Shown here in pieces: positions 5,230 through 21,779 of a stretch of 21,779 nt of DNA. Origin of the DNA: a virus; the IMG/VR virus record IMGVR_UViG_3300047499_000055, positions 1 to 21,779 of that record; one strand, written 5' to 3'. Position 1 is the first letter of the stretch; each line of letters opens with the position of its first letter. The position numbers were made by a program, and so were the translations under genes. A model generated the notes under the pieces. The model ran no database searches. It saw only the letters and a program-made list of their open reading frames with translations, and was not told where the DNA came from.

Positions 5230-6471
5230 TTGAACGAACTCGCAACCTTTAATTTTGGCGCCAACGTCCCCGCGCATTTGCGCCGGCACGCCGCCGTCTC
5301 CGCCCATCAGTCGATCCTGTCCAATCTGCCCACGGGAAGCTGGCAAAAAATCAGTTATGCCGGCAGCAAATGGGCGCTCATATCGGCGGAAGGGGACAAA
5401 ACCTACACCGGCACCATGGAACTCGACATAATCCTGGTCCGCGCGAACCCGAATATCTCGAAGCGTTACTACGAAGGCGCGTACGACCCGAACAATGAGG
5501 GCACTGCTCCCGACTGCTGGGCGGACAACGGCCAGGGGCCGGGCGCTCGCGTGCCCGATCCGGTGTCCAAGGTATGCGCGACATGCGACCTCAATAAATG
5601 GGGCAGCAACGTCGGCGTTTCCGGCAAGCCGACCAAAGCCTGCTCTGATGTGAAGCGCATGGCGGTGCTGGTATTTGCGCCGAACAAGGCGGCCGGTGAG
5701 CGGGTGCTTCTGCCCGGCTGTTGGGAATTGGACGTTCCGGGCGCCTCGCTCAGAAACCTGGCGGCTTACGCGAAGGAAACAGAAGCCAACGGCGCGGCCG
5801 TGACGATGGTTGTCACCCGACTTACCTTCGTGCCCGAGGCGAATTTTCCGCAACTCGCGTTCCGCGCGCTCGATTGGGTGTCTCAGGCCGAAGATGCGGC
5901 GGTGCAGGCCGCTTACCAAGCGGAAGTGGCGCTGTTGCAGATCGGGTTGCAGGAAGCCGGTGGGCCGGTGCAGCAGGCCGAGCAGCCGGGGCAGGTTGGC
6001 GAAGTCGTGCAGAAAGTGACCGAACAGTTCACTCTCACTCTCAGTCCCGCTCCCGCTCCCGCTCCCGCTCCCGCTCCCGCTCCCGCTCCCGCTCCCGCTC
6101 CCGCTCCCGCTCCCCAAGCCGCAACCACGCCGGTTGCCCCGCCATGCCCTCCCGGTGTCGATCCTGCTCAGTGGGCGCAATTCCAGGCCATGCAGGCGCA
6201 GGCCATGGCGGCGGCAGCTCAGCACTTACCTTCGCAGCAGGCCTCCAATACGGTGCAGGAAGCGCCCCGTCGCCGCGGCAGGCCACCGCGCAACCCGGAA
6301 GCCGCTCAGGCGCAGCCTGCCGCCGCCCCGCAAAGCGGCATGTTCGGCGACCGTGGGCAACCTGCCCAAACAAATGGCAGTTTGCCCGCAAGTCAGGCAG
6401 TCGTGTTGAACCCGCAGCCCACAAGTGCGGCGATCGATGAAATCCTGAAGGGTATTCCGGGTCTGTCGTGA
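5230..6471 (+). CDS. Four-cysteine replication-module protein with Pro-Ala repeat linker
   Basis: A 413-residue protein of unproved function. Residues 1-240 form a folded region with Cys96, then Cys116-x2-Cys119 and Cys138, a possible zinc-ribbon-like site. A long disordered half follows, with eleven Pro-Ala units encoded by a perfect hexamer repeat, a Gln/Ala-rich stretch, and an AT-hook-like RRRGRPPR at 347-354. The protein ends in a short IDEILKGIPGLS tail. A folded N-terminus with a disordered linker and conserved tail is the plan of many single-strand-binding or scaffold proteins, but I cannot assign that role. The TTG start at 5230 is fixed by AAGGAG at 5216-5221, 8 bases upstream. The stop overlaps the next gene as GTGA. 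Confidence 0.85.
   Translation: MNELATFNFGANVPAHLRRHAAVSAHQSILSNLPTGSWQKISYAGSKWALISAEGDKTYTGTMELDIILVRANPNISKRYYEGAYDPNNEGTAPDCWADNGQGPGARVPDPVSKVCATCDLNKWGSNVGVSGKPTKACSDVKRMAVLVFAPNKAAGERVLLPGCWELDVPGASLRNLAAYAKETEANGAAVTMVVTRLTFVPEANFPQLAFRALDWVSQAEDAAVQAAYQAEVALLQIGLQEAGGPVQQAEQPGQVGEVVQKVTEQFTLTLSPAPAPAPAPAPAPAPAPAPAPAPQAATTPVAPPCPPGVDPAQWAQFQAMQAQAMAAAAQHLPSQQASNTVQEAPRRRGRPPRNPEAAQAQPAAAPQSGMFGDRGQPAQTNGSLPASQAVVLNPQPTSAAIDEILKGIPGLS
6045..6110 (+). repeat. Eleven perfect TCCCGC tandem hexamers
   Basis: Eleven uninterrupted copies of TCCCGC, followed by a partial copy, encode the Pro-Ala linker of the surrounding gene. The unit is six bases, so gain or loss of copies keeps the reading frame and changes only linker length. 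Identical codons throughout (CCC GCT) indicate recent slippage expansion and not selection on the protein alone. On the opposite strand the repeat reads as a Gly-Ser/Gly-Ala-rich shadow frame, which is not a gene. Confidence 0.95.
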
Positions 6472-6810: not shown

Positions 6811-9582
6811 ATGATAAGGCACAAGTACGAAAAGCCTTCCCACCGTTTTTATACTGATAACTTTTCGTTAGTGACCGACCTTGAAAGTATCGACGCTACT
6901 GGCGAGGATGTTTACTTTTGCACAGCAAGTCTAACAGGACGCCGCCGACTTGGAGAGCTGGTTCATTCGCTCAAAGCGTTCCGACTCGATGCGGACGTAA
7001 AGCCCGGCGCGTATGCGAGCCAGGCGGAAGCGGCGCGGGCAGTGGCCTCGGTATTGGCCAGCCTGGGTTTGTTGCCTACGTGGGTCAACAGCGGCAACGG
7101 CCTGCACTGCTACATCGTGCTGGACGAAGCCATTCCGCCCGCCGTATGGTTGCCGGGGGCGACGGTTCTGAGCGAACATTGCCGTTCGGCTGGTTTGGCA
7201 CTGGACCACGCGGTTACGACCGATTTGGTGCGGATACTGCGGTATCCGGGCACCTTCAACCGCAAGGCCGAGCCGAAGCCGGTCGAGTTATGGGGCGAGA
7301 TTCGCCTCAACGAAACGAAAGCTGTGCTCGCCGCGCTCGCCGGAGCGGCTCGCAGCACGCTTTCGCCGCCCCCCGCCGGCTTGTCTCGCCCAACCCGGCC
7401 GGCGGGGGGTTTTTTGGGCGACATGCACGGCGCAGCACTGCCAGCGAGTGCCGCCCTGGCGGCGCAACACTGCCGTCAGCTAGCGGACATGCGCGACAAC
7501 CGGCAGGCGCGCTCCGGGTGCTGGTATCCGCTGATAGGTGTGCTGGCCTGGTGCGAGGATGGCGATGCGCTGGCACAGGAGTGGTCATCTGCCCACGAAA
7601 CGTACACCGAGGCAGAGACCGCAGAAAAGCTCGATCGGGTGCGCGCGAAAACCACGGGGGGCACAACTTGTGCCACGTTGGAGAAACACTGGCCGCAGGG
7701 ATGCGAAGGGTGTCCGCACAAAGGCAGGATCACAAGCCCCGTGCAGCTTGGCCGCGCCGCTGCGACCGGCCAAGCTGCGGGCGCGCCAAGCGGGCAGGCC
7801 GGCGAGCCGCCGAGCGATATACCAAAAGCCCCCTGGCCTTTCAAGACGGACGGGAGGGGTGTTTACTACCTGGAAAGCGAGGGGGAAGACGCGAAGATCG
7901 CGCATATCTACACCCGTCCGCTTTTTCTCGCGCGCATGACCAAAAGCGAATTAGGCCAGGGCTTAGGCTCGGTTTTTCGCCACAAGGCGACGAAGGGTTG
8001 GGAAGAATTTCAGATACCGAACCATGTGCTGGTCAGCCGCGAGGCGCGCGGAGCCTTCGCCCGCTTTATCCCGGCCTTTCCTGAAAGCAACTGGCGAGCC
8101 ATGGCTGTTTACATCTCATCGGCGCAAAATCACTTGGAACCACAAGGCTACATATCTTTGTACGACCAATTCGGTTTTAAGCCGGCAGGCTTTAGTAACC
8201 CCGACCTGATTACGTCTTTCGTCCTGGGCGAAACCGAATATCTCGCGGACGGGTCGCAGCGGTTCGCCGCGCTGAACGAAAATCTGCGGAACCGCGCCGC
8301 GCTGATGCAGACCAGGGGCACGCGCGAAGCCTGGGTGAAGGCCGCGCACAAGTTTGTGGCGCCCGGCATGGAGCCGCACATGCTCACGATCATGTTGGCG
8401 CTGGCCGCACCCCTCATCTGCCTTACAGGCGGCGACGGCGCGGTCCTGTGCCACGGATACAGCCCCGATACCGCCACCGGCAAGACGTTTGCTGCCTTCG
8501 TCGCCTTGTCGATGTGGGGCAGTGAGCAGGCCTTTACCGTGGTCAGCAGTGACACGGAGAACGCGCGCAACCGCTTTGTGTCTCAGGCCGGCAACCTTCC
8601 GATTTATTGGGACGAATTCACCCTTCAGGACCCGGATATCGCTGAGCGGATTGTTATGGATTTTACGCTCGGGCGCGAGAAACGCCGCTCGCAACGCGAC
8701 GGGTCGCTGATGCAGATTGAGAATACGTGGAACAATTTAATTTTGACCAGTGGCAACCGCTCCCTGCGCGACATGCTTGGGCTGGCCAAGAGTGGGAGCG
8801 ACGACGCGGCGGCGGCCAGGGTGTTTGAGTATGCCGTCACCCCCTCGATCTACTCTCAGAGCGAAATGCTGGCGGTGGTGCGCGAGTGCCGGCAAAACTG
8901 CGGCCATATCGGGCGCGAGTTCATCGCGGCCGTGGTCCAGAAGCTGTCTTTTGTGCAGGCTGCGCTTGACGCGCGCATCAAGGAATACCAGGCTTTGCCG
9001 GGGTTCGGCCCCGAATGCCGCTACCAGGTGCGCACCCTGGCCGCACTCGATATTACCATGCGGATCGCGCAAGGGCTGAATTTCTTCCAGTTCACGCCGG
9101 ACAGATACATGCAGTTCGCCATTGGCCAAGTGAACGAGGCCGCGGCCGAGCGCCTGTCACTTAAGGCGAATACGAATCCGCTGGGCCGGTTTTTGGCCGA
9201 GAACCAGGACAAGATCCTGGTCGTGCCCGAGAAATGGCAGAACAGGGATCGGTTCTATCAAGTGCCTATTCTGCTCCCGCGCGGCAAGCTGTATGCGCGG
9301 ATCGAGCGGGACAGCAACCGCATATACATCGACAAATCGTTTTTTGATTCGTGGCTGCTCGAAAAGAAATTCGACAAACGCAGCGTTCTGCATAAATTCA
9401 AAATCGACAAGGTTTTGCAGGGCGAGAAGATGATGACGTTGTCTGCGGGCGTGCGAGAGCTTCAGGTCGCATTCGCGCGTGTCTATATTTTTGACGGGCT
9501 TAACCCTGTCGTGGCGGGTGTGGTCGAGGGCAATATCGTGGCCATGATGCCACCGGAACCGAAGTTGAAGGTGGCGAAATGA
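6811..9582 (+). CDS. AEP-type primase fused to P-loop helicase (DUF927-like)
   Basis: A 923-residue replication protein that probably primes and unwinds DNA. The N-terminal archaeo-eukaryotic primase-like domain has Asp60-x-Asp62, SGNGLH at 94-99, and D138-x2-R141 with RYPGTFN at 144-150. A PriCT-like region follows (EWSS...YTEAE) with a TC...GCEGCPHKG cysteine cluster. The helicase half resembles DUF927 proteins: P-loop SPDTATGKT with Lys558 and Thr559, Walker B IYWDEF with Asp601 and Glu602, and an ILTSGNRS sensor-like segment. I chose ATG 6811 because AAGGA at 6794-6798 precedes it and the domain begins there; GTG 6739 is in frame, overlaps the previous gene by 38 bases, and would add 24 unremarkable residues. 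The linker between the halves contains a terminator-like hairpin. The stop overlaps the next gene as ATGA. Confidence 0.9.
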   Translation: MIRHKYEKPSHRFYTDNFSLVTDLESIDATGEDVYFCTASLTGRRRLGELVHSLKAFRLDADVKPGAYASQAEAARAVASVLASLGLLPTWVNSGNGLHCYIVLDEAIPPAVWLPGATVLSEHCRSAGLALDHAVTTDLVRILRYPGTFNRKAEPKPVELWGEIRLNETKAVLAALAGAARSTLSPPPAGLSRPTRPAGGFLGDMHGAALPASAALAAQHCRQLADMRDNRQARSGCWYPLIGVLAWCEDGDALAQEWSSAHETYTEAETAEKLDRVRAKTTGGTTCATLEKHWPQGCEGCPHKGRITSPVQLGRAAATGQAAGAPSGQAGEPPSDIPKAPWPFKTDGRGVYYLESEGEDAKIAHIYTRPLFLARMTKSELGQGLGSVFRHKATKGWEEFQIPNHVLVSREARGAFARFIPAFPESNWRAMAVYISSAQNHLEPQGYISLYDQFGFKPAGFSNPDLITSFVLGETEYLADGSQRFAALNENLRNRAALMQTRGTREAWVKAAHKFVAPGMEPHMLTIMLALAAPLICLTGGDGAVLCHGYSPDTATGKTFAAFVALSMWGSEQAFTVVSSDTENARNRFVSQAGNLPIYWDEFTLQDPDIAERIVMDFTLGREKRRSQRDGSLMQIENTWNNLILTSGNRSLRDMLGLAKSGSDDAAAARVFEYAVTPSIYSQSEMLAVVRECRQNCGHIGREFIAAVVQKLSFVQAALDARIKEYQALPGFGPECRYQVRTLAALDITMRIAQGLNFFQFTPDRYMQFAIGQVNEAAAERLSLKANTNPLGRFLAENQDKILVVPEKWQNRDRFYQVPILLPRGKLYARIERDSNRIYIDKSFFDSWLLEKKFDKRSVLHKFKIDKVLQGEKMMTLSAGVRELQVAFARVYIFDGLNPVVAGVVEGNIVAMMPPEPKLKVAK
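7369..7415 (+). terminator. Intrinsic-terminator-shaped hairpin inside the primase-helicase gene
   Basis: Bases 7369-7380 (CCCCCCGCCGGC) are a perfect inverted repeat of 7398-7409 (GCCGGCGGGGGG), giving a 12-bp GC-only stem with a 17-base loop, directly followed by TTTTTT at 7410-7415. This is the textbook form of a rho-independent terminator on the plus strand; the minus strand lacks a T run on the other side. It lies within the open reading frame, in the Pro/Gly-rich linker between primase and helicase domains. Whether it terminates when translated through is unknown. Confidence 0.7.
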
Positions 9583-10037: not shown

Positions 10038-11363
10038 CTAGGGAGTCGCCGCGTAGCTCATCCCAAGGGCGTATCCGTGGTCCCGCAGGCGGGGCAACTG
10101 CCAGCGGAGCCGGTCCCCTATGTCCGTCCTGTACATTGGCGAATTCGGCAACGACAAGCGATCCAATATCTGATAGGCGTGCCGGCGGGCTTCCTCCACA
10201 GTCGCCCCCGTTCCGCTCCCCACCAGAATATACGTGCCCGCCGTTACCCAGATCGGCGCTTCGAGGATTTGCCCCTTTATTTTTTGGGGGGCGGCCCCGA
10301 GGGCGACTTCGCATGGGTGGACTGAATCCCGCATTGATGGCTGAATTCCATAGATGGGAATCCCCGTCACCAGGTCCACCGCCAGCCTGTTGTACGGGTA
10401 ATCCGGGATTGAGAGGACTACTCCCGCCGCAATCGTTTTCTTTTTGAAAATCGAAGGGGCGTGCCCCGTCGCCAGGTCCATCAGCCATTCCGCGGGGTCT
10501 CCCTCATGCAAAGCCTGCTGTATGTTGAACGTAGGCCAGCCGGGGCGGCATGTGAACTCCAAAGGCCAGGGGGCGCCGGCCGCGTCGATAATGCAGTTTA
10601 CGTCGATATAGCCGACGTAGCCCGACCGGCGTAGCGCGGGAGCGAATGGGGCAAGGACTGCATCGGCCAGTGCGGAGCGTAGAGTATATCGAAGCACAGT
10701 TCCTTGCTCGCCCGTATTTGGCCCCCTGTCGCCGTCGCATAGCTTCTTGAACTCGAAGTTTTCGCACCACGCATCCGCAAAACCCGCCGGGCCAAACCAG
10801 CCGCCCACTGCCATTTCGTCGCCATCGATTTTCTCCTGTAAGATAAAATCCCGTCGCTTGTTATGCTTTTTCCACCGTTGCAGCATATAAACCAAGTCTT
10901 CAGGTGTCTTGGCTACGTACGACAGCGCCTTGTCGGCATCGCCGCTCGGCTTGGACACGAACGCCTTGTCCTGTTTTTTGACGAAAGCGATCGCCGCGTC
11001 GTAGTCGTGAAACTCCACCGATTTCGGCACCGCGATACCTTTCTGGCGGAACATCGCCATGCCTTTGTTCCGGTCCAGCTCCCAATCTGCGACTTCTTCC
11101 GTAGCACCCACGATCGGCGGCGTATTCTGGTGCCGGCGCAGCATATCCATGTCGCGCATCCAAAGCGTGTTGTCGGTTAGGAAGATCAGGTCGGCCCACT
11201 GCACCCATGGGCGCCATTCAGGCACGCGCTCGATAAGGCCGCGTCCGATCGGATCAAGGCGCGGTTTGGGCGGCACATACCATTTGACCGCGTGCCCGGC
11301 CGCCTGGCACCGCAGGAGCCAGTCTACCGCGTTCGCCTGGGCGTCAAGGCATAAAATCCTCAC
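10038..11363 (-). CDS. PurD-like ATP-grasp ligase
   Basis: A 441-residue ATP-grasp enzyme similar to phosphoribosylamine-glycine ligase, forming an amide or similar bond through an acyl-phosphate. Visible are KPSGDADK at 138-145, LQEKIDGDE at 175-183, the PurD signature DGDRGPNTG at 210-218 continuing EQG where PurD has GMG, YIDVN at 252-256, and LEFTCRPGWPT at 268-278 with Glu269 and Arg273. The length is near that of PurD, but the first 90 residues lack an obvious PurD pattern. It starts at GTG, overlapping the stop of the 51-residue acidic ORF as GTGA, with GAGGAAG at 11368-11374 upstream. It sits among virion genes and not with purine genes, so its substrate is open: a virion protein, a peptide or a nucleotide-like small molecule. 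Confidence 0.85.
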   Translation of the reverse strand: MRILCLDAQANAVDWLLRCQAAGHAVKWYVPPKPRLDPIGRGLIERVPEWRPWVQWADLIFLTDNTLWMRDMDMLRRHQNTPPIVGATEEVADWELDRNKGMAMFRQKGIAVPKSVEFHDYDAAIAFVKKQDKAFVSKPSGDADKALSYVAKTPEDLVYMLQRWKKHNKRRDFILQEKIDGDEMAVGGWFGPAGFADAWCENFEFKKLCDGDRGPNTGEQGTVLRYTLRSALADAVLAPFAPALRRSGYVGYIDVNCIIDAAGAPWPLEFTCRPGWPTFNIQQALHEGDPAEWLMDLATGHAPSIFKKKTIAAGVVLSIPDYPYNRLAVDLVTGIPIYGIQPSMRDSVHPCEVALGAAPQKIKGQILEAPIWVTAGTYILVGSGTGATVEEARRHAYQILDRLSLPNSPMYRTDIGDRLRWQLPRLRDHGYALGMSYAATP

Positions 11364-11515
11364 TCGTCTTCCTCGTCTGCGTCGTCAGGCGCTTCATCAG
11401 GCTGGCCCACGGGATCGGTGTCTTCGTCTTCTTCGTGGATCGGCGGCGGGTCTATCGGGCAGTTGCACCGCTCGTCCAGGTCATCCTCAGGGCCGTGTGC
11501 TATGATCGATCGCAT
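11360..11515 (-). CDS. 51-residue acidic mini-protein coupled to the ATP-grasp gene
   Basis: A short ORF starting at ATG 11515. The N-terminus MRSIIAHGPEDDLDERCNC contains two cysteines, then a PIDPPP turn, and the last 25 residues are almost all Asp, Glu, Pro and Thr. Its TGA overlaps the GTG of the ATP-grasp gene by four bases, the same overlap style used across this genome. There is no good Shine-Dalgarno sequence before its ATG, which lowers confidence. Function unknown: it could be a structural acidic tail peptide, a DNA mimic, a substrate of its neighbour, or only a leader that delivers ribosomes to the ligase. Confidence 0.6.
   Translation of the reverse strand: MRSIIAHGPEDDLDERCNCPIDPPPIHEEDEDTDPVGQPDEAPDDADEEDE
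11368..11374 (-). promoter_or_regulatory. Ribosome binding site for the ATP-grasp gene inside the acidic ORF
   Basis: GAGGAAG on the minus strand lies a few bases before the GTG at 11363 and is made by the Glu/Asp codons at the end of the preceding acidic ORF. It supports the GTG start and translational coupling. Confidence 0.65.
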
Positions 11516-11552: not shown

Positions 11553-13259
11553 TCATTGTGCGTCATCCTGAGCGGGCTGCGCGCCTTGTGGCAGGGGCAA
11601 TCCCCCGGCTATTGAGCGGGCTACGAGGCGGCGCGTTTGCGGCATCGCCTGCGCGACCGCGCGAAACGCCGCGGTGCCGGGCTTGGTGTAAAGCGCCGAC
11701 CCCAGCGCCGCTGCCGCCGCCATCGGCGCACCGGTTCCCGTCGCCGCAGCCCCTCCAGCCGCCACACCGCCGCCGAGAATGTGATTGACCAAGTGCGCCT
11801 GAAGCAGCCGCCCGGCCGTCCCGCTATCGGGCACGGTGTTCCCCACCACTTTTTGCGCCGCTTCCGCGAAAGGCTGCATTCCGGCGACACCTTTGGCGGT
11901 GTTTAATTTATCCTTCGTAGGATCGTTCTGCTTGATCTTTTGCAGCAGCTTGGCCGGCGAGAAGACACCTTCCGTCACCGTTGAATCCGCAGCCGCGCGC
12001 TGGATCGGTTTGTAAAGCGCGTACGCCTGGTTGACCTTTTGCAGCTCCCCGGCGAATTTCGGGTTTTGCCGCGTCAAGTTAGCACGAAGAACATCGCGCA
12101 CATCCTGTATAGCCGAGCCAAACTCCCGTTCTGACGCAAGCGACGAATTCCGGTAGGTTTTCGCAAGCTGGCTTAATTCACTTTCCACCGCTTTGAACGT
12201 ATTCCCGGTCATGTATTTGTTTGCGGTAAAGCGCGGAACAAGAAAATTAGCCATCAGTTTATTGAACTGGTCAACTTGCGCGTGAGGCAGGGTGCCTCCC
12301 TGAATACGCCGCATCACGTTCGACAAATCCCGATCGAGAACCGAATCGACACGAAGTGATAGGTTCGGCAGCACCTTGTTGTAGGCGTCGTCCAGCGCGT
12401 CCGCTGCGGCAGAAATCGCCGCGTGCCCGGCCTTCACGTCCGCCGGCAGGCTGGCGCCGATAGGTTTCAACGCCTGGTTCACCGCCGCCGTGTTGAAGCT
12501 GTGCATGGCTTCTTTGCGCGCTTCAGCGATGAAGTGCCCGACGACGGGCACGGCCGTCGCCTTCTGCTCCGCATAGTTGGCCGCGGCGCCTGCAATCTGA
12601 CCCGGGGTTAATTTCACGCCGGCCGCGACCAGCAGCTTCTTCGCCGAATCCTGGAGCACTTTACCGACCACGCCGGCCGCCGCGCCGCCGACAGCGCCCA
12701 TTCCGATTTGCTTCAGTTTTTCGTTCGCGAACGCTCCGAGAGAGCGATCCAAATCTTTCATCTGCGCTTGGTGGACAGGGGTCAGCAAGCCATTGGTTAT
12801 CCCTGCGACGGCCGCTTCGACCATAGGAGACGCGATTTTGTAGGCCTTGGCGATTTTGCCCGCCGCTCCTACTGGCGTGACCGACGATCCGGCCAGGTCG
12901 CCGAGAAACGTTGCCCACGGATGCGCTGCAAGATCAGGACCGAGTTCGGTATTTATGCGGTCCAAACCCTTTTGCGCATCCGCCTCGATCGCGCGGCCCG
13001 GCCGCGGTGCAAACGTGCTGACACCGCGACCGAACAGCTCCTGGCCGCCGAGTGCCAGCTTACCAAAACCACCCGCAGCGCCTTTGAGAGCCGATACAGC
13101 AGCGTTATCCGGCGCCGCCTGGGGCTGAGCAGGAGCAGTAGAAGACCCTGCATTGGCGGGAGCGTCGATCGCCGGTGCCGCCATCCATGCCGGCTGAGCG
13201 CCTTGCGGGGGAGGCTTATTGACAAGGGGAGCCTCCATCCATGCAGGTTGGTCCGCCAT
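11553..13259 (-). CDS. Probable ejection/internal virion protein, large
   Basis: A 568-residue Ala-rich protein. The N-terminus carries two copies of a QPAWMxAP motif (residues 4-11 and 22-29), a feature seen in phage internal virion proteins, followed by an Ala/Pro/Gln linker. Several hydrophobic Gly/Ala stretches follow (around 52-75, 118-145, 182-200 and near 490-520), able to insert in a membrane. The middle is helical. Such proteins leave the podovirus head with the DNA and help form a channel through the envelope. No lytic transglycosylase motif is apparent. The ATG overlaps the upstream stop by one base (TAATG). The tail repeats a PQGAQPA sequence also present near the N-terminus. The assignment rests on composition, size and position, and on resemblance to the three-protein ejection sets of P22-like phages. 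Confidence 0.75.
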   Translation of the reverse strand: MADQPAWMEAPLVNKPPPQGAQPAWMAAPAIDAPANAGSSTAPAQPQAAPDNAAVSALKGAAGGFGKLALGGQELFGRGVSTFAPRPGRAIEADAQKGLDRINTELGPDLAAHPWATFLGDLAGSSVTPVGAAGKIAKAYKIASPMVEAAVAGITNGLLTPVHQAQMKDLDRSLGAFANEKLKQIGMGAVGGAAAGVVGKVLQDSAKKLLVAAGVKLTPGQIAGAAANYAEQKATAVPVVGHFIAEARKEAMHSFNTAAVNQALKPIGASLPADVKAGHAAISAAADALDDAYNKVLPNLSLRVDSVLDRDLSNVMRRIQGGTLPHAQVDQFNKLMANFLVPRFTANKYMTGNTFKAVESELSQLAKTYRNSSLASEREFGSAIQDVRDVLRANLTRQNPKFAGELQKVNQAYALYKPIQRAAADSTVTEGVFSPAKLLQKIKQNDPTKDKLNTAKGVAGMQPFAEAAQKVVGNTVPDSGTAGRLLQAHLVNHILGGGVAAGGAAATGTGAPMAAAAALGSALYTKPGTAAFRAVAQAMPQTRRLVARSIAGGLPLPQGAQPAQDDAQ

Positions 13260-14839
13260 TACGGTTTTTTCCGGTGTGATCCGTCAGGCGCGATAAATTC
13301 CGCACCCGAGGGAAGCGCATTGTAATCCGCGTCGGACGATATTTTCACGGGCGGCTTTGGCGTCTCGTCGCCTGCCGGGCTTGCTTGTATCCGCTGCTTT
13401 ATCGCATCCAGTTTTTCAGCATAAGATTGCGTGCGGTTGTCCATGTCCTTATATGCCACGCCTTCGATCACGTTGCGGATTTGATCGACGTTGTACGCGC
13501 CCGAAAACAACTCCGCTGCCACGCGGCGGCTATCGACGGTGGAACCTTGTGCGCCGGTCGATCCAGACATGACTTTCGCGTATTCGTCCGCGCCCGTCAG
13601 AAGTGCGGCGATGTAAGGCGGGATATTCTTGTCGCCGAGAGCAATCGCCCCTCCCTGAACCCATTTGTTTATGAAAGGGCCGAGGTTTGTCGGCACACCT
13701 TTCGGCGCCAAAGATAGCGCAAGCTCGAAATTCTTTTTGGCAGTCGCTTCGAAACTCTCCGCTGCGTCAGCCTGTTTTTGCAGATTATTCAAGCTGCGGC
13801 TGTCCGCTGTGACGCCTGCCGCGTGGGCGATATCCGCTTCGACCGTCACCTTTTCGAGCCTGCGCTGGCGCGCCGCCTCGTTCAAAATCTGCGTACGAAC
13901 GCCGCCCGAATTAAGGCCGAGCAGTGGCATTTTGCTTGTTTCGCGGTATTCACGCGCTGCGTCGTAGATCGCGTCGGGCGTGGCTTTCGCTTGCCCCACC
14001 TGGCCGCCTGCACCGAGCTTGGAGAGGCCTGCCGGCGCATCGTCCACAGGCTCTACTTTGCCTGTAGCGACGTTGGCCCGGTACATTTTGCCGTCTTGGC
14101 CGGTGAGAAACTGCCAGCCCTTAGCGCCCGCGTTTTCGCCTGCAATTACGATCCGCTGGCCGCCTTGCGCTTCTTCCGCGTAGTCGTGCCGCGTGCGCTC
14201 GTCCAAAGACCTGCTTTCGCGCGCCACAAGCTGCTGCGCCTGATAGACCTTAAGTTTGTCTTCCCACTCCTGCCTTTGCGCCGGCATAGCCTGTCGCGCC
14301 GCCATCATAATTGCCTGCGGCGGCGTGCCGGGCGGCGCCACCTCGGCGATTTCCTGCGTGAGAGATTGCAAACTGGGCGGCGGCGGAAACCCCGAGGAAG
14401 CGCCAGGTTGCGCGGGCGCGGCGCCTGCACCCGACTGCGGTGGTAGCGGACCTGCAAGCGGGCCAGGCGACATACCGCTGGGTGTGCCACCGGGCAGGCC
14501 GGCGTTGCCTGGTGCCCCGATCATCTGTGCGCCCGGCAGCGTTGGGCCCCCCTGCGCCGGCGCGGGCTGCGCGCCACCTTGCCCGGGCGCTTGCGCCACA
14601 TCGTAAGGGGTTGACTGCTGCCGGGGCTGGCTGTCTTGCTGAATTTTCGCGAGACTGGACGCGAGCGAAGCCTTATCGGCCCAGCCCTGAAGCTGCAATT
14701 GCTGCTGCGTAAACTGAAACTCCGCAGCCGCCTGCTGCAACTTCATCTTTTCAAGCGCGAGCTTTTTCTGCTGCTCTTGCGCCTGCTGCGCGTAGTCGAG
14801 CACATGACCAACGGAACCGAGAAAAGCGAGCGCGCTCAC
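13259..14839 (-). CDS. Probable ejection/internal virion protein, middle
   Basis: A 526-residue protein. It has a hydrophobic N-terminus, a Gln-rich coiled coil at about residues 14-65, then a long low-complexity Pro/Gly/Gln/Ala linker to about 160, a helical region, and a C-terminal ISSDADYNALPSGAEFIAPDG segment of the type that closes many phage virion proteins and is often a small binding tail. I chose GTG at 14839 because it overlaps the upstream stop as GTGA; a TTG one codon earlier is in frame. It lies between two other probable ejection proteins. No enzymatic motif is visible. The role as the second member of an ejection set is inferred. Confidence 0.75.
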   Translation of the reverse strand: MSALAFLGSVGHVLDYAQQAQEQQKKLALEKMKLQQAAAEFQFTQQQLQLQGWADKASLASSLAKIQQDSQPRQQSTPYDVAQAPGQGGAQPAPAQGGPTLPGAQMIGAPGNAGLPGGTPSGMSPGPLAGPLPPQSGAGAAPAQPGASSGFPPPPSLQSLTQEIAEVAPPGTPPQAIMMAARQAMPAQRQEWEDKLKVYQAQQLVARESRSLDERTRHDYAEEAQGGQRIVIAGENAGAKGWQFLTGQDGKMYRANVATGKVEPVDDAPAGLSKLGAGGQVGQAKATPDAIYDAAREYRETSKMPLLGLNSGGVRTQILNEAARQRRLEKVTVEADIAHAAGVTADSRSLNNLQKQADAAESFEATAKKNFELALSLAPKGVPTNLGPFINKWVQGGAIALGDKNIPPYIAALLTGADEYAKVMSGSTGAQGSTVDSRRVAAELFSGAYNVDQIRNVIEGVAYKDMDNRTQSYAEKLDAIKQRIQASPAGDETPKPPVKISSDADYNALPSGAEFIAPDGSHRKKP

Positions 14840-15669
14840 CAACCGCTATCCGGAGCGCTGCCGGCCCCACTGAAAGCGTTGCCACCGAACAATCCGGACA
14901 ACGCGCTCAAACCGCCCAGCCCGGTGTCCGAAAGCCCGAAACCAAGCAGAGAACCGAGGCCGCCGAGAATACCGTTAAACTGGTTTTGCTGCGCGTTGTA
15001 TTGCGCAAGATTATTTCCGTAGCCTTGATTGGCCAAGCCAAGATACTGGTCCGCCGCGCCTGTCACCCCCTGGTCCAGCCCTTGCTGAGTGCCGAGCGCG
15101 CCCAACGCCGCGCCCAGGATCGAGTTGGCCGTCGAGTACGGGAGCGCGCCACCCCCCAAGGTTGCTTGCGCGCCAAGATTGCCCTGGCTTGCCCCCTGGC
15201 CGAACGCCGACTCGGCGCCCTGAACACCCTGCAACTGGCGCTGAAGCTGGTTGTTCTGCCAATCAATATTGAAGTTGCTGTTGTTCTGAGCGGCTACCGC
15301 CTGCCCGTACGGCGTGGCGCCCACGCCTGAGGCGGCCAGGATCGCACCCGTCTGGTCCTGGTTTTGCTGCTGCGTGCGCGCGTAAAGCGCGTTCTGCGGG
15401 TCAAACGCCGTGTTCAGCAGCGAGTTACCCGCCCCATAGAGTTGCCCGGAAGCGCCACCCGCCTGCCCGCCCAACGCCGTCAATTGGTTCCCCGCAGCAC
15501 CCGCCGCCGCCTGGTAGCCTTGGCCATACGGGTTATTGACGATGCCCTGGGTCAACCCGTAGCCCTGTCCGGCCAACCCCTGAAGACCGGATAAGGCGCC
15601 TGAGTAGGCGTTATTCGCCTGGCCGAAATTCGAGTAATTGGGCGCCTGCGGCACCGATGGTTCGCTCAC
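14836..15669 (-). CDS. Probable ejection/virion protein, Gly/Gln/Ala-rich
   Basis: A 277-residue protein rich in Gly, Ala, Gln and Asn. It has no signal peptide; the C-terminal quarter is a Gly-Leu hydrophobic stretch (NGILGGLGSLLGFGL and onward) that could contact a membrane. The region NALYARTQQQNQDQTGAILA followed by a QNNQLQRQLQG helix is typical of structural phage proteins near ejection genes. I placed the start at GTG 15669, which has GAGG and AGGA upstream at workable distances; an in-frame TTG at 15678 has AGGA too close to serve it. First of three consecutive structural genes that parallel the small, middle and large ejection proteins of P22-like phages; that parallel is an inference from order and size. 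Confidence 0.7.
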   Translation of the reverse strand: MSEPSVPQAPNYSNFGQANNAYSGALSGLQGLAGQGYGLTQGIVNNPYGQGYQAAAGAAGNQLTALGGQAGGASGQLYGAGNSLLNTAFDPQNALYARTQQQNQDQTGAILAASGVGATPYGQAVAAQNNSNFNIDWQNNQLQRQLQGVQGAESAFGQGASQGNLGAQATLGGGALPYSTANSILGAALGALGTQQGLDQGVTGAADQYLGLANQGYGNNLAQYNAQQNQFNGILGGLGSLLGFGLSDTGLGGLSALSGLFGGNAFSGAGSAPDSGW

Positions 15670-15681
15670 CGGCCTCAAATC

Positions 15682-16164
15682 CTATTCCAGATACGCACCC
15701 ATTACCATTTCCATCGGTCGAAGTCCAAGGCGACGCAACAAACCACCCAGAACTTCCGCCTGTCGAGGATCCGCCGATAGCGTCAACCCCGCCATCACCT
15801 TGCATGGGCGAGGTAGCACAGGAAGCAAAGCCTTCCACATCCCCGCCCACACCAGGCCGCGCCGCCCAGGCCCTTCATCGGGCACAACCCAGATCGTTTC
15901 GTCCCGCACGTAAAGGGTGCCGGTGTGCCTGTCGGGGCGGAAAAAATTCACGCCGATATAGCCTACTAAGACATCATCTCTGCGGGCGATAAACGCCCGG
16001 AACGATCCGGCCTGCTCGCGCTGCAAATAAGCGCCCCAATTGACCGACAGTGGGACAGTAGTCTTGTCCGTTGCGATTTCGGTCCAGTGCGCTTTGATTT
16101 TTTCGCCAAGGCGGTCGTTCACCAGCAGGTCGAGAAGAGGCTCGAAGGCGTAGGTCAGCCCCAA
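15682..16164 (-). CDS. GNAT-like N-acetyltransferase
   Basis: A 160-residue protein with the outline of a GNAT acetyltransferase: an N-terminal helix, then the FRAFIAR and LVGYIGVNFF strands, a TLYVRDETIWVVPDEGPGRRGLVWAGMW segment where the strand is followed by a basic RRG turn and helix (the acetyl-CoA pyrophosphate site in GNATs is Q/RxxGxG/A), and a C-terminal LGLRPMEMVMGAYLE strand. The start is TTG at 16164, supported by AAGGATAGG just upstream; no ATG fits. It overlaps the end of a 34-residue membrane ORF by ten bases. GNAT genes among phage virion genes are common and their targets are mostly unknown. Activity cannot be judged from motif alone. Confidence 0.75.
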   Translation of the reverse strand: MGLTYAFEPLLDLLVNDRLGEKIKAHWTEIATDKTTVPLSVNWGAYLQREQAGSFRAFIARRDDVLVGYIGVNFFRPDRHTGTLYVRDETIWVVPDEGPGRRGLVWAGMWKALLPVLPRPCKVMAGLTLSADPRQAEVLGGLLRRLGLRPMEMVMGAYLE

Positions 16165-17508: not shown

Positions 17509-18618
17509 TTACCACTCCAGCAAAAGGTATCCGGGGCCGCCCGCACCACCTGTCGTGCTTCCGCCCGAGCTGCCTGAAGCGCCTGCGCCGCCCGACCCGA
17601 ACCCTTGGCCATTTTGGCCATTTTGGCCGTCGAAGGCGGGTGTGCCGCCTTTTCCAAGCAGGCAGTCGCCGCCTGCACCCCCAACGCTCAAAGAGCCGCT
17701 AAGGAAGCCTTCGCGTCCGTTCGATCCGCCCGACCCGCCTTGCGCACCGCCCGATGACGGGCCGGTGTTCGTGCCGGCAGTGCCCCCGTGACCGTACCCG
17801 AGGGTGATGAGGCTCGAACCTGAGTAGGTCATGGTGGTAGAGCCGCCGTTGCCGCCGTTGCCGCCAGCCGTGCCGGCGCCGCTCAACCCCACGTTAATTG
17901 CATAAACCCCACCCGGAGTCACCGTGAGGGGCTGCTTCAAGATTGAGTCGCCTGCACCACCCCCACCGCCACCCGAATCGGCATTGCTCAGTACGCCACC
18001 ACCCGCACCACCCGCCCCACAACCCGAGACATAGGCCAGGGTCACGCCGCTGGGGCACGTCCAGGTCTGCGCGCTGCTCGACTGCTCGAATTGTGCGAAC
18101 CGCGCCGCGTTGAACGCGCTGGGCGGCGTATTGACCAGGACAAAGCCACCAAGCGCCGATTGGTAGGTTATCAGCATGACCTGGTTGGCGAGGGTAGCGG
18201 TGATTTGCTGCTGGCCGCCGGCATCGTACAACGGCACCGCCGTCAGCGCCGTTCCGCTGTACGCTTGGTAGGCGATCAGCACATTGCCGCCGGACACCAC
18301 CGAATTAGGCATCCTGAAAAGCAACGTAAGCCCGTTCTGGTAGGAGCTGACCGTGGCACCGGCCGCGGTCGTGGTAACCGTGAGCGTCAGGCTCGCAACC
18401 GAAACCGTACACGGAACAACCGTTCCCGCGCCCAGGCCCAGCGCCGTCAGAGCGGTTTGAATAGTTGACCCACCCGTGCCGCCATTCGCGATAGTAACCG
18501 GCGTGGTAGGGATCGAAAGACCGTTCAGGTAACTGACCAGCGCGGTAAAGTTCGCGTTGACCTGCGCAGACGCAGCAACCTGGCCGGGAGAAAAGGCATA
18601 GGGAACGCTTGCAGGCAT
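17509..18618 (-). CDS. Glycine-rich tail fibre/adhesin-like protein
   Basis: A 369-residue virion protein. The N-terminus has SPGQVAASAQVNANFTAL at about 10-27 and an ANGGTGGST segment at 44-52, both common at the base of phage tail fibres. A beta-rich middle domain (about 65-175) is followed by FEQSSSAQTWTCPSGVTLAYVSGCGAG and then about 150 residues dominated by Gly with Ser, Asn and Ala. The protein ends GPGYLLLEW, a closing strand typical of glycine-rich virion domains. Such regions can form stacked polyglycine-II helices, as in some fibre adhesins, and would be host-contacting. The ATG at 18618 follows the upstream stop by one base. No chaperone or collagen-like repeat is seen. Confidence 0.75.
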   Translation of the reverse strand: MPASVPYAFSPGQVAASAQVNANFTALVSYLNGLSIPTTPVTIANGGTGGSTIQTALTALGLGAGTVVPCTVSVASLTLTVTTTAAGATVSSYQNGLTLLFRMPNSVVSGGNVLIAYQAYSGTALTAVPLYDAGGQQQITATLANQVMLITYQSALGGFVLVNTPPSAFNAARFAQFEQSSSAQTWTCPSGVTLAYVSGCGAGGAGGGVLSNADSGGGGGGAGDSILKQPLTVTPGGVYAINVGLSGAGTAGGNGGNGGSTTMTYSGSSLITLGYGHGGTAGTNTGPSSGGAQGGSGGSNGREGFLSGSLSVGGAGGDCLLGKGGTPAFDGQNGQNGQGFGSGGAGASGSSGGSTTGGAGGPGYLLLEW

Positions 18619-18619
18619 G

Positions 18620-20002
18620 TCAGCTCACTCCCGAATTATACTGCTGCACGTAACCAAGAACCTGCAACTGCATGTATATCGCGCCTACCGAAAAGCCTTG
18701 GTAGGAAGTCCCGCTCGCGGCGAAATAGCCTTGCTTGAACACAACCGGTTTAGCCCATTTCACGAAATTCGGCGCAAGCGGCACGTAACTCCCGTCCCAT
18801 GGCGCCCCGTCCCAATTGAAATTATCCCAGGTCGTATTCGTTGCGTTCGGCGTGATCGAGGTCGTGGCGAGCACAGTCGAATCCGACGCGTCGTAAAAAT
18901 CAATGAGGACCGTGGGCGAAGGCCCGATGAAACCCATATCCAGAGCCGCATAGATCATGGCGTTGTTCGCCAGTTCCTTATTGTCGGGCAAAAGCGAAGT
19001 CTGGTATTCCCAAGCCATCGCGTTGCCGAACTCGGTATAATTACTTGTCTCGCTCGGCACTACGTCAGTCTGAAAGAGACCGAGATAGACGGTATCGACA
19101 GGCGCCGTCAGGACGTAGGTGACGGTGTTGCTTTCGACTAGCGTAATCGCGTCCCGCACCTGGATCGTATGCGTGCCGTAAGTGGCGCTTGGGCCGCCGC
19201 CTGACCAGGATACCCCGTCCGTATATCCTGTCAGACTGGTCCAGGCGCTACTATCTTCCTGGTACTGCATCGTGGATGCAATCGGGCCGAAATTAAATCC
19301 GGTCAACGGTATAACGCTATTGTAGACAGGCGTGACGTTATTCAGTGTCAGAACCTCGCCGGTATCAACACCCCCCTCATTGTAGTACCCTGTCCCGGTG
19401 ATCGAGAATGTGACGGGTATGAGATTTCCGGCATTCAACTGAATGCCGGTTATGCAGTTCAAAGGCATGTTCTGCGGAAAATACGTTGACTCCCATATCA
19501 AGGGGGACATGGGCGAATTCATGTAGATGCCCGGAGTGCTAACCCAAATACCACCTAAAACAGATGTTCCGCCGGGGTAGGCAGTGCTTTGCGTAGAAAT
19601 AATCAGGGTGGTTGTGATTCCGACGTTCTGCGTATAAGGCGGATCAGGGGGCGTAAACGTACCGACGAAAAAAGACCCTGAATTCGACCCGATATCAGGC
19701 GTGGAATTATTGATCGTAGTGAACGTAATGCCGGAGTAACCGCCGAACCCTGGGAACGTTGCGGGGTAAGTGTCCCATTCGTAAGTAATAATAGGATCGC
19801 TACCGAAACCGGAACCAGGGTTGGCGCTTTTAATGTAGCACGTCAAATCGGTTCCAAGACCGCCCAGCGGGTCATACCCCAGAGATTCCGTTGTCGTCAG
19901 GGTAAGATTTACCGACTGGCAGTTTTGCGAAAGCGCGATCGTGCCGCTATTGGTCAACGTGCTCAGCGATATTATGCTGTTTATGTTGATGGTTCCGGTC
20001 AT
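18620..20002 (-). CDS. Beta-rich tail/virion protein
   Basis: A 460-residue protein nearly all beta strand, rich in Thr, Ser, Gly, Asn and Tyr. Residues 10-60 form a Thr-rich domain, about 225-300 looks Ig-like (IPLTGFNFG, a YQEDSSAWTSL strand and a final VTYVL strand), and 303-460 form a separate domain with WDNFNWDGAPWDG and a KPVVFKQGYFAASG segment that I have seen as a closing domain in short-tailed phage virion proteins. The ATG overlaps the stop of the nozzle-like gene as ATGA. The DNA is visibly more A+T-rich than the flanking genes. It probably belongs to the tail tip or a fibre; the exact part is not assigned. Confidence 0.7.
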   Translation of the reverse strand: MTGTININSIISLSTLTNSGTIALSQNCQSVNLTLTTTESLGYDPLGGLGTDLTCYIKSANPGSGFGSDPIITYEWDTYPATFPGFGGYSGITFTTINNSTPDIGSNSGSFFVGTFTPPDPPYTQNVGITTTLIISTQSTAYPGGTSVLGGIWVSTPGIYMNSPMSPLIWESTYFPQNMPLNCITGIQLNAGNLIPVTFSITGTGYYNEGGVDTGEVLTLNNVTPVYNSVIPLTGFNFGPIASTMQYQEDSSAWTSLTGYTDGVSWSGGGPSATYGTHTIQVRDAITLVESNTVTYVLTAPVDTVYLGLFQTDVVPSETSNYTEFGNAMAWEYQTSLLPDNKELANNAMIYAALDMGFIGPSPTVLIDFYDASDSTVLATTSITPNATNTTWDNFNWDGAPWDGSYVPLAPNFVKWAKPVVFKQGYFAASGTSYQGFSVGAIYMQLQVLGYVQQYNSGVS

Positions 20003-21183
20003 GACGGCGGCAGCGCGAAAGCAGCAATGAACGTGTTGTTATACGGCCGCATAAAAACCGTGGGCGTCGTATGCGGACCTGTCCAGGATTTCAAGCCGTA
20101 GTTGAACCAGTACTCCTGGTTGGATTGGATCGTTGCTGCCGCGACCTGCACGGATATGCGCAGCGTCTGCATGTTGAAGGCTGCGCACATGCGTGACGGG
20201 TAAACGGCGTTTTGAAAAACCGCTTTCATCCCCGTGCCCCAATCGCCGATAGGGTCTGAAACGTTGCTGCTGAAGTCGATCAGTCTCACACCGTCAGGCG
20301 CAACGAAGGCCAAGCCGCGGGGTGTGGGCGTGACAGTGTTCGGCGCCAAGGTGCCTGTCGCCACGTTCAAAGTGTTGACGGTCCAGATGCCGGGGAAACC
20401 GGAATAGTCGCCGGTCACCTGGAAAATGTTCTGGATGCCCTTAAAAACCATCAGAGACTGAATAATGCCTCCCTGCACGTTGTTCAGGGGCAGGCCTGCG
20501 AGTGCGGTGATCGGTGTCGAGTCGCCGAACGTCAGAACCTGGCCGGCGTTCGTCTGCTGGAGGGGTAGGAATTCATCGCTCGCCTGCACGGCGTTGCCTA
20601 CTGCGTAGTAGGCTCGGCCGCCGTAGACCGCCACCGCGACGGGCGGGCTGGGGAGCACGTTCGGGGACGGTAGACCGTTCGCGACCTGGAAATTTCCTGA
20701 GTGCCATACCGGGGTGGCGGGTGTCGTGAGGTCGAACCACCCGATATAGCCGTTCGCGGGGCCTTGAAAGCCGGGATGCGTGACGATGACGTAGGCGCCC
20801 AGGGACACCATCGTCGGGGGCGTCCAATCCCCGTTTACCGACTGGGTATAAGGCGTATTGGAAGAAGTGATATTACTCGGAACGGTAGAAGTTTGGGTCT
20901 CAAGGTTGTAGATGAACGGCACATCGAAGCCATTACCGTTCGAAACCATTCCATAAACCGTCGAGCCGAGAATCAGGAACACCGTAACCCCGGCATTGCC
21001 TAGCCCGATCGTGTTGGGGAGCTGGATCGAGGCGGGGCGGGGCACAAACAGCCCGCGGGTCGTGGGTGCGGGTATGAGGTTCTGCAAGGACAGCATGGAG
21101 CCGGGGCGCATGTCCGTGCTGTCGAGCGTGTCCGTGATGCCGACCGGGCGCCACGTCAGGGTGCGAGCGCCGCGAATCGGCAT
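19999..21183 (-). CDS. Tail nozzle/beta-propeller-like protein
   Basis: A 394-residue protein with repeated beta hairpins (VTVFLILGSTVYGMV, AVAVYGGRAYYAVGNAV, RGLAFVAPDGVRLIDF) and intervening turns, the sort of blades seen in tail nozzle proteins such as P22 gp10 and T7 gp12. It starts MPIRGARTLTW at ATG 21183, after a GGGGGTGA site, three bases past the stop of the adaptor-like gene. Its order (adaptor, nozzle, other tail protein) matches short-tailed phages. The family was recognised from pattern and order only, so the nozzle name is provisional. No enzymatic motif is visible. Confidence 0.65.
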   Translation of the reverse strand: MPIRGARTLTWRPVGITDTLDSTDMRPGSMLSLQNLIPAPTTRGLFVPRPASIQLPNTIGLGNAGVTVFLILGSTVYGMVSNGNGFDVPFIYNLETQTSTVPSNITSSNTPYTQSVNGDWTPPTMVSLGAYVIVTHPGFQGPANGYIGWFDLTTPATPVWHSGNFQVANGLPSPNVLPSPPVAVAVYGGRAYYAVGNAVQASDEFLPLQQTNAGQVLTFGDSTPITALAGLPLNNVQGGIIQSLMVFKGIQNIFQVTGDYSGFPGIWTVNTLNVATGTLAPNTVTPTPRGLAFVAPDGVRLIDFSSNVSDPIGDWGTGMKAVFQNAVYPSRMCAAFNMQTLRISVQVAAATIQSNQEYWFNYGLKSWTGPHTTPTVFMRPYNNTFIAAFALPPS

Positions 21184-21186
21184 GCT

Positions 21187-21779
21187 TCACCCCCATACTT
21201 GCTTGGTGTCGGGCAGCGTATTGAGGTTCTGACCAAACCGCCGCCGGTCCAAGGTGACCGTCTTGGCCCGCCCTTCATCGTCATTCGTCAGCTTGAGGTA
21301 GGCCTCGAGCTGCTTGTCCGCCAACTGCTCAAACATCAGCTTCCGCGTGTCGTCCGTCTGCTCCATCATAACGGCTGTCAGCTTCAGCCGCAGATAAGCC
21401 TGGTTCGGAAACCACGGGACAAGCCCGAAATTGGTAAGATCAGGCAAAAGCCGTCGATACTGAATGCGGAACGTCAGGGCCAGGCTGGCGGGCGGCCAGA
21501 CATACAGCAACGGCGCCGTAGGCGGCTCCTGTCCGAGCGGACTTACATCCGTCGCGAACAACTCGGGTAACGCCGCAAGACCGCTCTGCTGGACCTGCTG
21601 CTCATACTCCGTAAGGTCCACGGATATCATCGGGTAGGAAATGCCGTTGTAGAGATACCAGGCACCGTCGCGCTCAACGCGCTTGTAATCCATCGGCAAC
21701 AGATAAGGGCCACTTCCGTTCCCGCTGCCGTTGTCCGCGATGAACGTGCCGGTGAACTGCCCGCGGCAAAGGTCCAGGT
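21187..21779 (-). CDS. Head-tail adaptor/tail accessory protein (5' end outside window)
   Basis: The frame stays open on the minus strand to the right edge, so the visible 196 residues are the C-terminal part of a longer protein; a shorter frame from TTG 21699 would begin inside it. Upstream of that TTG the reading continues with TGTFIADNGSGNGSGPYLLP, which joins smoothly to the MDYKRVERD segment. Further on are LLYVWPPASLALTFRIQYRRLLPDL, VPWFPNQAYLRLK, TDDTRKLMFEQLADKQLEAYLK and a TLDRRRFGQNLNTLPDTKQVWG end. This pattern matches the tail accessory/adaptor proteins of short-tailed phages such as P22 gp4. It is the first virion gene visible and is followed directly by the nozzle-like gene. Confidence 0.75.
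   Translation of the reverse strand, partial: LDLCRGQFTGTFIADNGSGNGSGPYLLPMDYKRVERDGAWYLYNGISYPMISVDLTEYEQQVQQSGLAALPELFATDVSPLGQEPPTAPLLYVWPPASLALTFRIQYRRLLPDLTNFGLVPWFPNQAYLRLKLTAVMMEQTDDTRKLMFEQLADKQLEAYLKLTNDDEGRAKTVTLDRRRFGQNLNTLPDTKQVWG

Follow-up and report, generated by a model that had tools for sequence, protein, structure and literature searches.

What is an enzyme resembling PurD, the glycinamide ribonucleotide (GAR) synthetase of purine synthesis, doing at the end of a phage virion operon? The question arises from an IMG/VR virus record, analysed here as a stretch of 21,779 bases (the window), in which a first-pass annotation had read positions 10038-11363 as a PurD-like ATP-grasp gene with a possible role outside purine metabolism. 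The gene is real: an uninterrupted open reading frame (ORF) of 441 codons with a GTG start occupies the minus strand, which the annotation had left unspecified, and the plus strand of the same interval carries several stops. We refer to this PurD-like ATP-grasp ligase (10038..11363, minus strand) as AG.

AG is the last gene of a minus-strand, virion-side operon in which tail genes are followed by a GNAT-like gene, three larger proteins and AG, and which converges with a plus-strand, replication-side operon. By gene order, the virion-side operon contains a gp11/gp12-like tail region (18620..21777, minus), a tail-fibre-type protein (17509..18618, minus; phrog_863), a GNAT-like acetyltransferase in the place of T7 gp13 (15682..16164, minus; a weak Acetyltransf_1 match, with relatives matching phrog_1249), a gp14-like protein of 280 aa (14836..15678, minus; homologues in 36 loci) and two presumed ejection proteins, one gp15-like (13259..14842, minus; 527 aa) and one large and gp16-like (11553..13259, minus; 568 aa, no database match). 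A small acidic ORF of 51 aa with the C-terminus DDADEEDE (11360..11515, minus; coordinates derived from the sequence) overlaps the start of AG by 4 nt. On the facing strand, the last large gene is primase/helicase-like (6814..9582, plus; named by eye, as are the polymerase, nuclease, helicase and primase labels throughout the replication operon), and an RNA ligase match lies at 1383-2021. Two local peculiarities were also seen. The gp12-like protein is encoded by two overlapping ORFs (18620-21183, minus; 394 and 460 aa), where relatives have one ORF of 536-679 aa; the second of the two carries about 300 extra residues at its N-terminus. A perfect 6-bp tandem repeat of 11.7 copies occurs at 6045-6114, with a Pro-Ala run in a 413-aa ORF (5230-6471).

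The annotation had placed AG between probable ejection proteins and the operon end. The position at the end stands and recurs in relatives, whereas the ejection label comes from gene order and relatives, the window's own proteins having no PHROG or Pfam match. Specifically, a PHROGs search assigned no family to AG or to the gp14-, gp15- and gp16-like proteins, and the latter three matched no Pfam family either. Against the PDB, neither the gp14-like family profile nor the large upstream proteins gave a match; WD-40-type matches of the single gp14-like sequence arise through repeats and were taken as spurious, and its helical, low-confidence AF2 model (mean pLDDT, 59) was set aside. Relatives were somewhat more informative: 7 of 66 upstream proteins matched a DNA ejection family (phrog_598), 8 of 66 an acetyltransferase family (phrog_1249) and 5 of 66 head-closure families. 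Among 33 large upstream ORFs, matches were to phrog_894 (2), phrog_342 (1) and Peptidase_M15_3 (3), of the types endolysin, internal virion protein with endolysin domain and peptidase M15; portal families matched one or two, and the majority were uninformative. We infer the ejection role of these proteins from gene order and from matches in a minority of cases.

The relationship of AG to PurD is clear in its fold. Pfam detected GARS_A (E = 1.3e-8) and, under its cut-off, GARS_C (3.2e-7), and PurD structures in the PDB were matched at 2.4e-14 with the single sequence and 6.8e-26 with the family profile. An AF2 model built on a 50-row family alignment reached a mean pLDDT of 94.3 and a pTM of 0.92. 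The top 15 Foldseek matches in the PDB were all GAR synthetases, and VIA-align superposed the model on 2yw2 with Z 35.2 and an rmsd of 3.2 over 394 aligned residues, recovering the three-domain GAR-synthetase fold; PurT, PurK and PylC scored Z 23-25. The ATP-grasp homology thus lies well beyond chance, and we are confident that AG is an ATP-grasp protein with the whole fold of PurD. The alignment spans model residues 1..424, so the N-terminal part holds the PurD domain even though its sequence motif has vanished; the first-pass remark on a lack of PurD likeness in the first 90 residues is right for the motif and wrong for the fold. The family score is another matter. TIGR00877, the NCBIfam equivalog for PurD, is matched by all 50 family members (best E = 3.2e-29), but the window's AG scores 68 bits against a curated cut-off of 288.

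To locate the differences, we compared 12 canonical PurD rows (from 11 genomes), 50 phage rows and 54 genome-contig rows, the last ('CELL') set including the phage-branch sequences L083-L086. Residues for ATP, Mg and glycine are named for Aquifex aeolicus PurD in the accessible text of PMC8880213, and these were mapped onto the window through the family-profile PDB match and the comparison alignment. The ATP/Mg site is largely kept, with K143, E192, K214 and E100 corresponding to window K138, E183, K206 and E95, and with K103 and E185 changed to R98 and Q176. K138, E183, K206, E269 and R273 are invariant in the family, the first four of which, as ATP-site Lys and Glu residues and an acidic metal ligand, mark AG together with the fold as a member of the ATP-grasp superfamily. 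D254 and N256 are new invariant polar residues near the metal site. At the glycine site, the carboxylate-binding R287 is kept (R273), but the acidic D212 and E292 have become E204 and T278.

Further PurD residues have changed across the family. The metal-site Asn is N in 12/12 PurD rows and T in 50/50 phage and 54/54 genome-contig rows. Both the GDPE motif (PS00184) and the glycine-site Glu are lost: in the numbering of the reference PurD (L150), D293, which is near-invariant rather than fully invariant among PurD rows, is replaced by W276 in 98% of the 50 phage rows, and E295 by T278 in 86%. The family changes in that numbering are E187->Q, D214->E, G229->E, Y271->D, G273->N, N288->T, D293->W and E295->T, and the invariant PurD N226 is lost. 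In the N-terminal domain, G9, R11, E12 and H13 of the G-x-G-G-R-E-H loop occur in 12/12 PurD rows and are unconserved in phage rows, where conservation of P72, L76 and G79 (the GPEAPL loop) is also lost. Loss of the N-terminal loop may mean loss of phosphoribosylamine (PRA) binding, a reading we keep conditional because, according to PMC8880213, the structure of PRA binding is not known. In place of the PurD motifs, the shared columns define a signature of N-x-E-[FH]-K, T-G-E-x-G-T, G-Y-x-D-V-N and P-L-E-[FI]-T-x-R. The DGDRGPNTG motif singled out earlier is present in the window but is a minority form (of the 50 phage rows, 22% have P215 and 14% have N216) of a site whose consensus is NGDxGVATGEQGT. 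The altered pocket points to substrates that are neither glycine nor PRA. We regard it as highly probable that the family is an active ATP-grasp ligase that is not PurD.

The family extends well beyond the window. Within IMG/VR, 156 of 167 stretches found with the window's AG protein were relatives; a cellular-branch profile gave 488 of 531 and canonical PurD patterns gave 25 of 41, although these pattern-based counts come from separate queries and are not strictly comparable. Genome contigs yielded 67 related stretches out of 270; a few are phage-like (L083-L086) and the rest share about 28-36% identity, in metagenome-assembled genomes (MAGs) of Acidobacteria, Woeseiaceae, Planctomycetes, patescibacteria and DPANN archaea. 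In a quick tree built from 100 rows, the 12 PurD rows grouped as a single clade (support, 100) and the 88 family rows stood apart (100), split into a phage branch of 56 rows (100) and a sister branch of 30 genome rows plus L162 (90), with L163 a long branch of uncertain placement. The tree indicates a family distinct from PurD, comprising a phage branch and a sister branch whose members are scattered among bacteria and archaea. True PurD above the cut-off co-occurs in 11 of 17 genomes holding a cellular-branch gene; the other six are all MAGs, several from small-genome lineages. Together with the replaced glycine-site and N-domain residues and a position kept across very diverged phages, this co-occurrence supports the earlier proposal of a PurD-like enzyme with a non-purine role.

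Cellular members are mostly solo genes without a virion link, and a search for conserved neighbours revealed local patterns only. Four patescibacterial loci (L130, L143, L144 and L147) have a DAP-epimerase-family gene directly after the PurD-like gene, followed by a histidine kinase (families scanned in L144). In six loci from Woeseiaceae-type MAGs (L109, L119, L124, L129, L134 and L138), a PGM1/IQCH-like ATP-grasp gene and another ATP-grasp gene precede the PurD-like gene, with a GT5 glycosyltransferase as well in five (families scanned in L129); the arrangement suggests a pathway for a peptide or a glycan conjugate. A Nanoarchaeota MAG carries two adjoining ORFs of one BLAST cluster, possibly a tandem copy (L133:7825-10949).

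Among named phage records, MW202796 (source, Manatee Spring) is the only one with AG. Its gene is unannotated, encodes a protein 45% identical to the window's and sits behind the same kind of operon; other matches in named records share about 21-30% identity, and several carry the annotation purD. In window-type phages, the portal and capsid proteins of MW202796 each gave 0 of 18 matches, and we therefore used the gp12-like protein as census marker, keeping 80 loci, 19 of them in records of at least 38 kb. AG was present in 18 of these 19 records. In the exception, G038, which has repeated ends, the GNAT and gp14-like genes precede a large gene of 1123 aa in the usual order. AG is therefore no absolute requirement; within this phage group it is near-universal yet dispensable or replaceable. 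At its operon junction, G038 bears a Mom-like DNA-modification gene (L339:6710-7294, minus; phrog_1384, E = 9e-41), whose relatives across L001-L233 and the window were confined to L162.

Wherever flanks sufficed, the order was tail genes, GNAT-like, gp14-like, large genes and AG, followed by either a convergent replication operon or more late-strand genes; L162 and L163 differ. In 103 of 157 AG loci, an ORF on the same strand and 200 aa or longer ends at the AG start, the remainder having contig edges or short intervening frames. These 103 ORFs form 48 non-redundant clusters, with an AG overlap of 4 nt in 31 and 1 nt in 5. Within the operon, AG shows the highest conservation (52-61% in most loci compared, against 27-59% for the gp14-like protein), and BLAST found the gp15-like protein in one and the gp16-like protein in three loci. 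The median dN/dS of AG was 0.029 over 46 pairs, largely from one lineage (0.051 for the window against L002), which indicates strong purifying selection.

These observations lead us to propose a late role for AG as a carboxylate-amine ligase whose target is a virion or ejection protein, or a small molecule made at the assembly stage, a tentative reading that we place slightly on the doubtful side of an even call. AG would be an active ligase of an ATP-grasp family split from PurD, without GAR synthetase activity, and its late translation would be coupled to the large upstream gene for a presumed ejection protein. AG would activate a carboxylate as an acyl phosphate with ATP, and an amine on the virion or ejection protein would attack it to give the joined product; alternatively, AG would make a small amide that the ejection apparatus needs for its construction or delivery. 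We favour a virion target, above all the ejection apparatus, because of the position of AG, its overlap with the upstream gene and its presumed late expression, although that the target belongs to this apparatus in particular is a little more doubtful than the proposal as a whole. Weighing against the proposal are the absence of AG from G038, the differing order in L162 and L163, the portal-family matches of one or two large upstream ORFs, the uninformative majority of these ORFs and the solo cellular genes; podovirus late operons also include non-virion genes. If the target is not in the virion, AG would most plausibly yield a small-molecule product or, once ejected, act on the host. The first-pass annotation is thus partly confirmed in what it observed and partly supported in how it was interpreted.

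The best-surviving rival, which we nonetheless consider unlikely, is that AG is carried in the virion, ejected with the core proteins and active against a host molecule as infection begins. Podovirus ejection operons bear enzymes such as transglycosylases, and the fixed place and overlapping frames of AG behind presumed ejection genes, along with the hydrolase-type matches of some large upstream proteins, would fit such a role, but the modelled fold appears compact and soluble, with no obvious membrane or core-binding segment.

A narrower version of our proposal, in which AG is a dedicated ligase modifying the C-terminus of the upstream large ejection protein, was suggested by the tails of these proteins and is improbable. 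A Y-G or Y-x-G type pair occurs within the last ten residues in 14 of the 48 upstream-protein clusters, compared to 3 of 38 for the preceding gene, often as YGG[TP]xQ at the very end. An artefact of a Shine-Dalgarno sequence plus ATGA was dropped for the cases checked: the glycine codons vary (GGC GGC, GGT GGT, GGC GGG), so the tail is not merely a ribosome-binding site. However, it is found in a minority of clusters, some perhaps by descent, and the large protein of G038, which has no AG, ends in YGID, so the tail, though suggestive where it occurs, is no proof of a substrate. If the idea were true, the phage would encode a C-terminal ligation step in building or arming its genome-ejection machine. 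The small acidic ORF was also considered as a general substrate and rejected, being confined to the window subclade (the window, L003, L004 and L011, with homologous frames of 47 to 125 aa); L063 has a different acidic ORF before AG.

Two further readings appear quite improbable, and about equally so. AG might make or attach a group that modifies DNA bases, or yield some other product for counter-defence, as the Mom-like gene of G038 lies where AG would end; this is a single case, on the opposite strand beside a primase-like gene and with its one relative in L162, and by eye no other such gene was recognised in the window. Alternatively, AG might be a catalytically dead structural or chaperone protein, in line with the metal-site Asn-to-Thr and E185-to-Gln changes, but the invariant K138, E183, K206, E269 and R273, the likewise invariant D254 and N256 and the low dN/dS argue against this. 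Least probable of all is an auxiliary metabolic PurD that boosts purine synthesis via glycinamide ribonucleotide: despite best sequence and fold matches that are all PurD, TIGR00877 matches in all 50 members and reports of viral purD, the score is far below cut-off, the GGREH and GPEAPL loops and N288, D293 and E295 are lost, canonical PurD accompanies most cellular relatives and the gene sits in a virion operon.

We found no description of the phage family in the literature searched. It represents a conserved, selected enzyme at a fixed late-operon place in a very diverse group of uncultured phages, and a phage protein- or metabolite-modification step thereby becomes open to direct testing. 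Other phage ATP-grasp genes differ from it. Those of LUZ24-like phages, as described in the available part of PMC3890496 along with amidoligase and glutamine amidotransferase genes, are likewise podoviral, but the ATP-grasp protein has 291 aa and its gene belongs to the early set on the opposite strand, close to the amidoligase and a GGCT-like gene. The phage R2K/CDC123 peptide ligases (available part of PMC4431377) are also phage ATP-grasp enzymes and predicted protein modifiers, distinguished by the two-lysine RAGNYA feature; in family-library scans, no NCBIfam or Pfam match of AG points there. L-amino-acid ligase, PylC, PurK, PurT and biotin carboxylase share the ATP-grasp fold with AG (Z 23.1 for PylC and 23-25 for PurK/PurT, with L-amino-acid ligase 3vot in the Foldseek list), at 10-15% identity and some 10 Z units lower than the top PurD match.

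The cellular side of the family has been glimpsed before, as judged from the accessible portion of PMC3261824, which treats 'extra' haloarchaeal PurD-like proteins (rrnAC0307 and Hlac_1553) that lack GARS_N, the Mg sites and the PS00184 Asp as non-GAR synthetases, and from a Halarchaeum plasmid protein with 57.5% identity to a cellular-branch member. The likeness of rrnAC0307 and Hlac_1553 to AG is one of description, and the phage branch is a separate clade. PurD itself (TIGR00877, GARS_A/GARS_C) shares with AG the full-length fold with N- and C-domains, the ATP-site Lys and Glu, the carboxylate Arg and a C-terminal R-x-D-I-G, and differs in its GGREH and GPEAPL loops and in score. Three virome papers, in the text available, report purD/GART as viral auxiliary metabolic genes (PMC11360552, PMC11097641 and PMC12043954), the first describing GART as enriched in viruses more than 2.8-fold and as newly found in those of the sea, and these published calls may in part represent the AG family. 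Viral purD/GART 'auxiliary metabolic genes' should therefore be checked for the GGREH, TGGMG and GDPE motifs that mark canonical PurD before purine metabolism is inferred.
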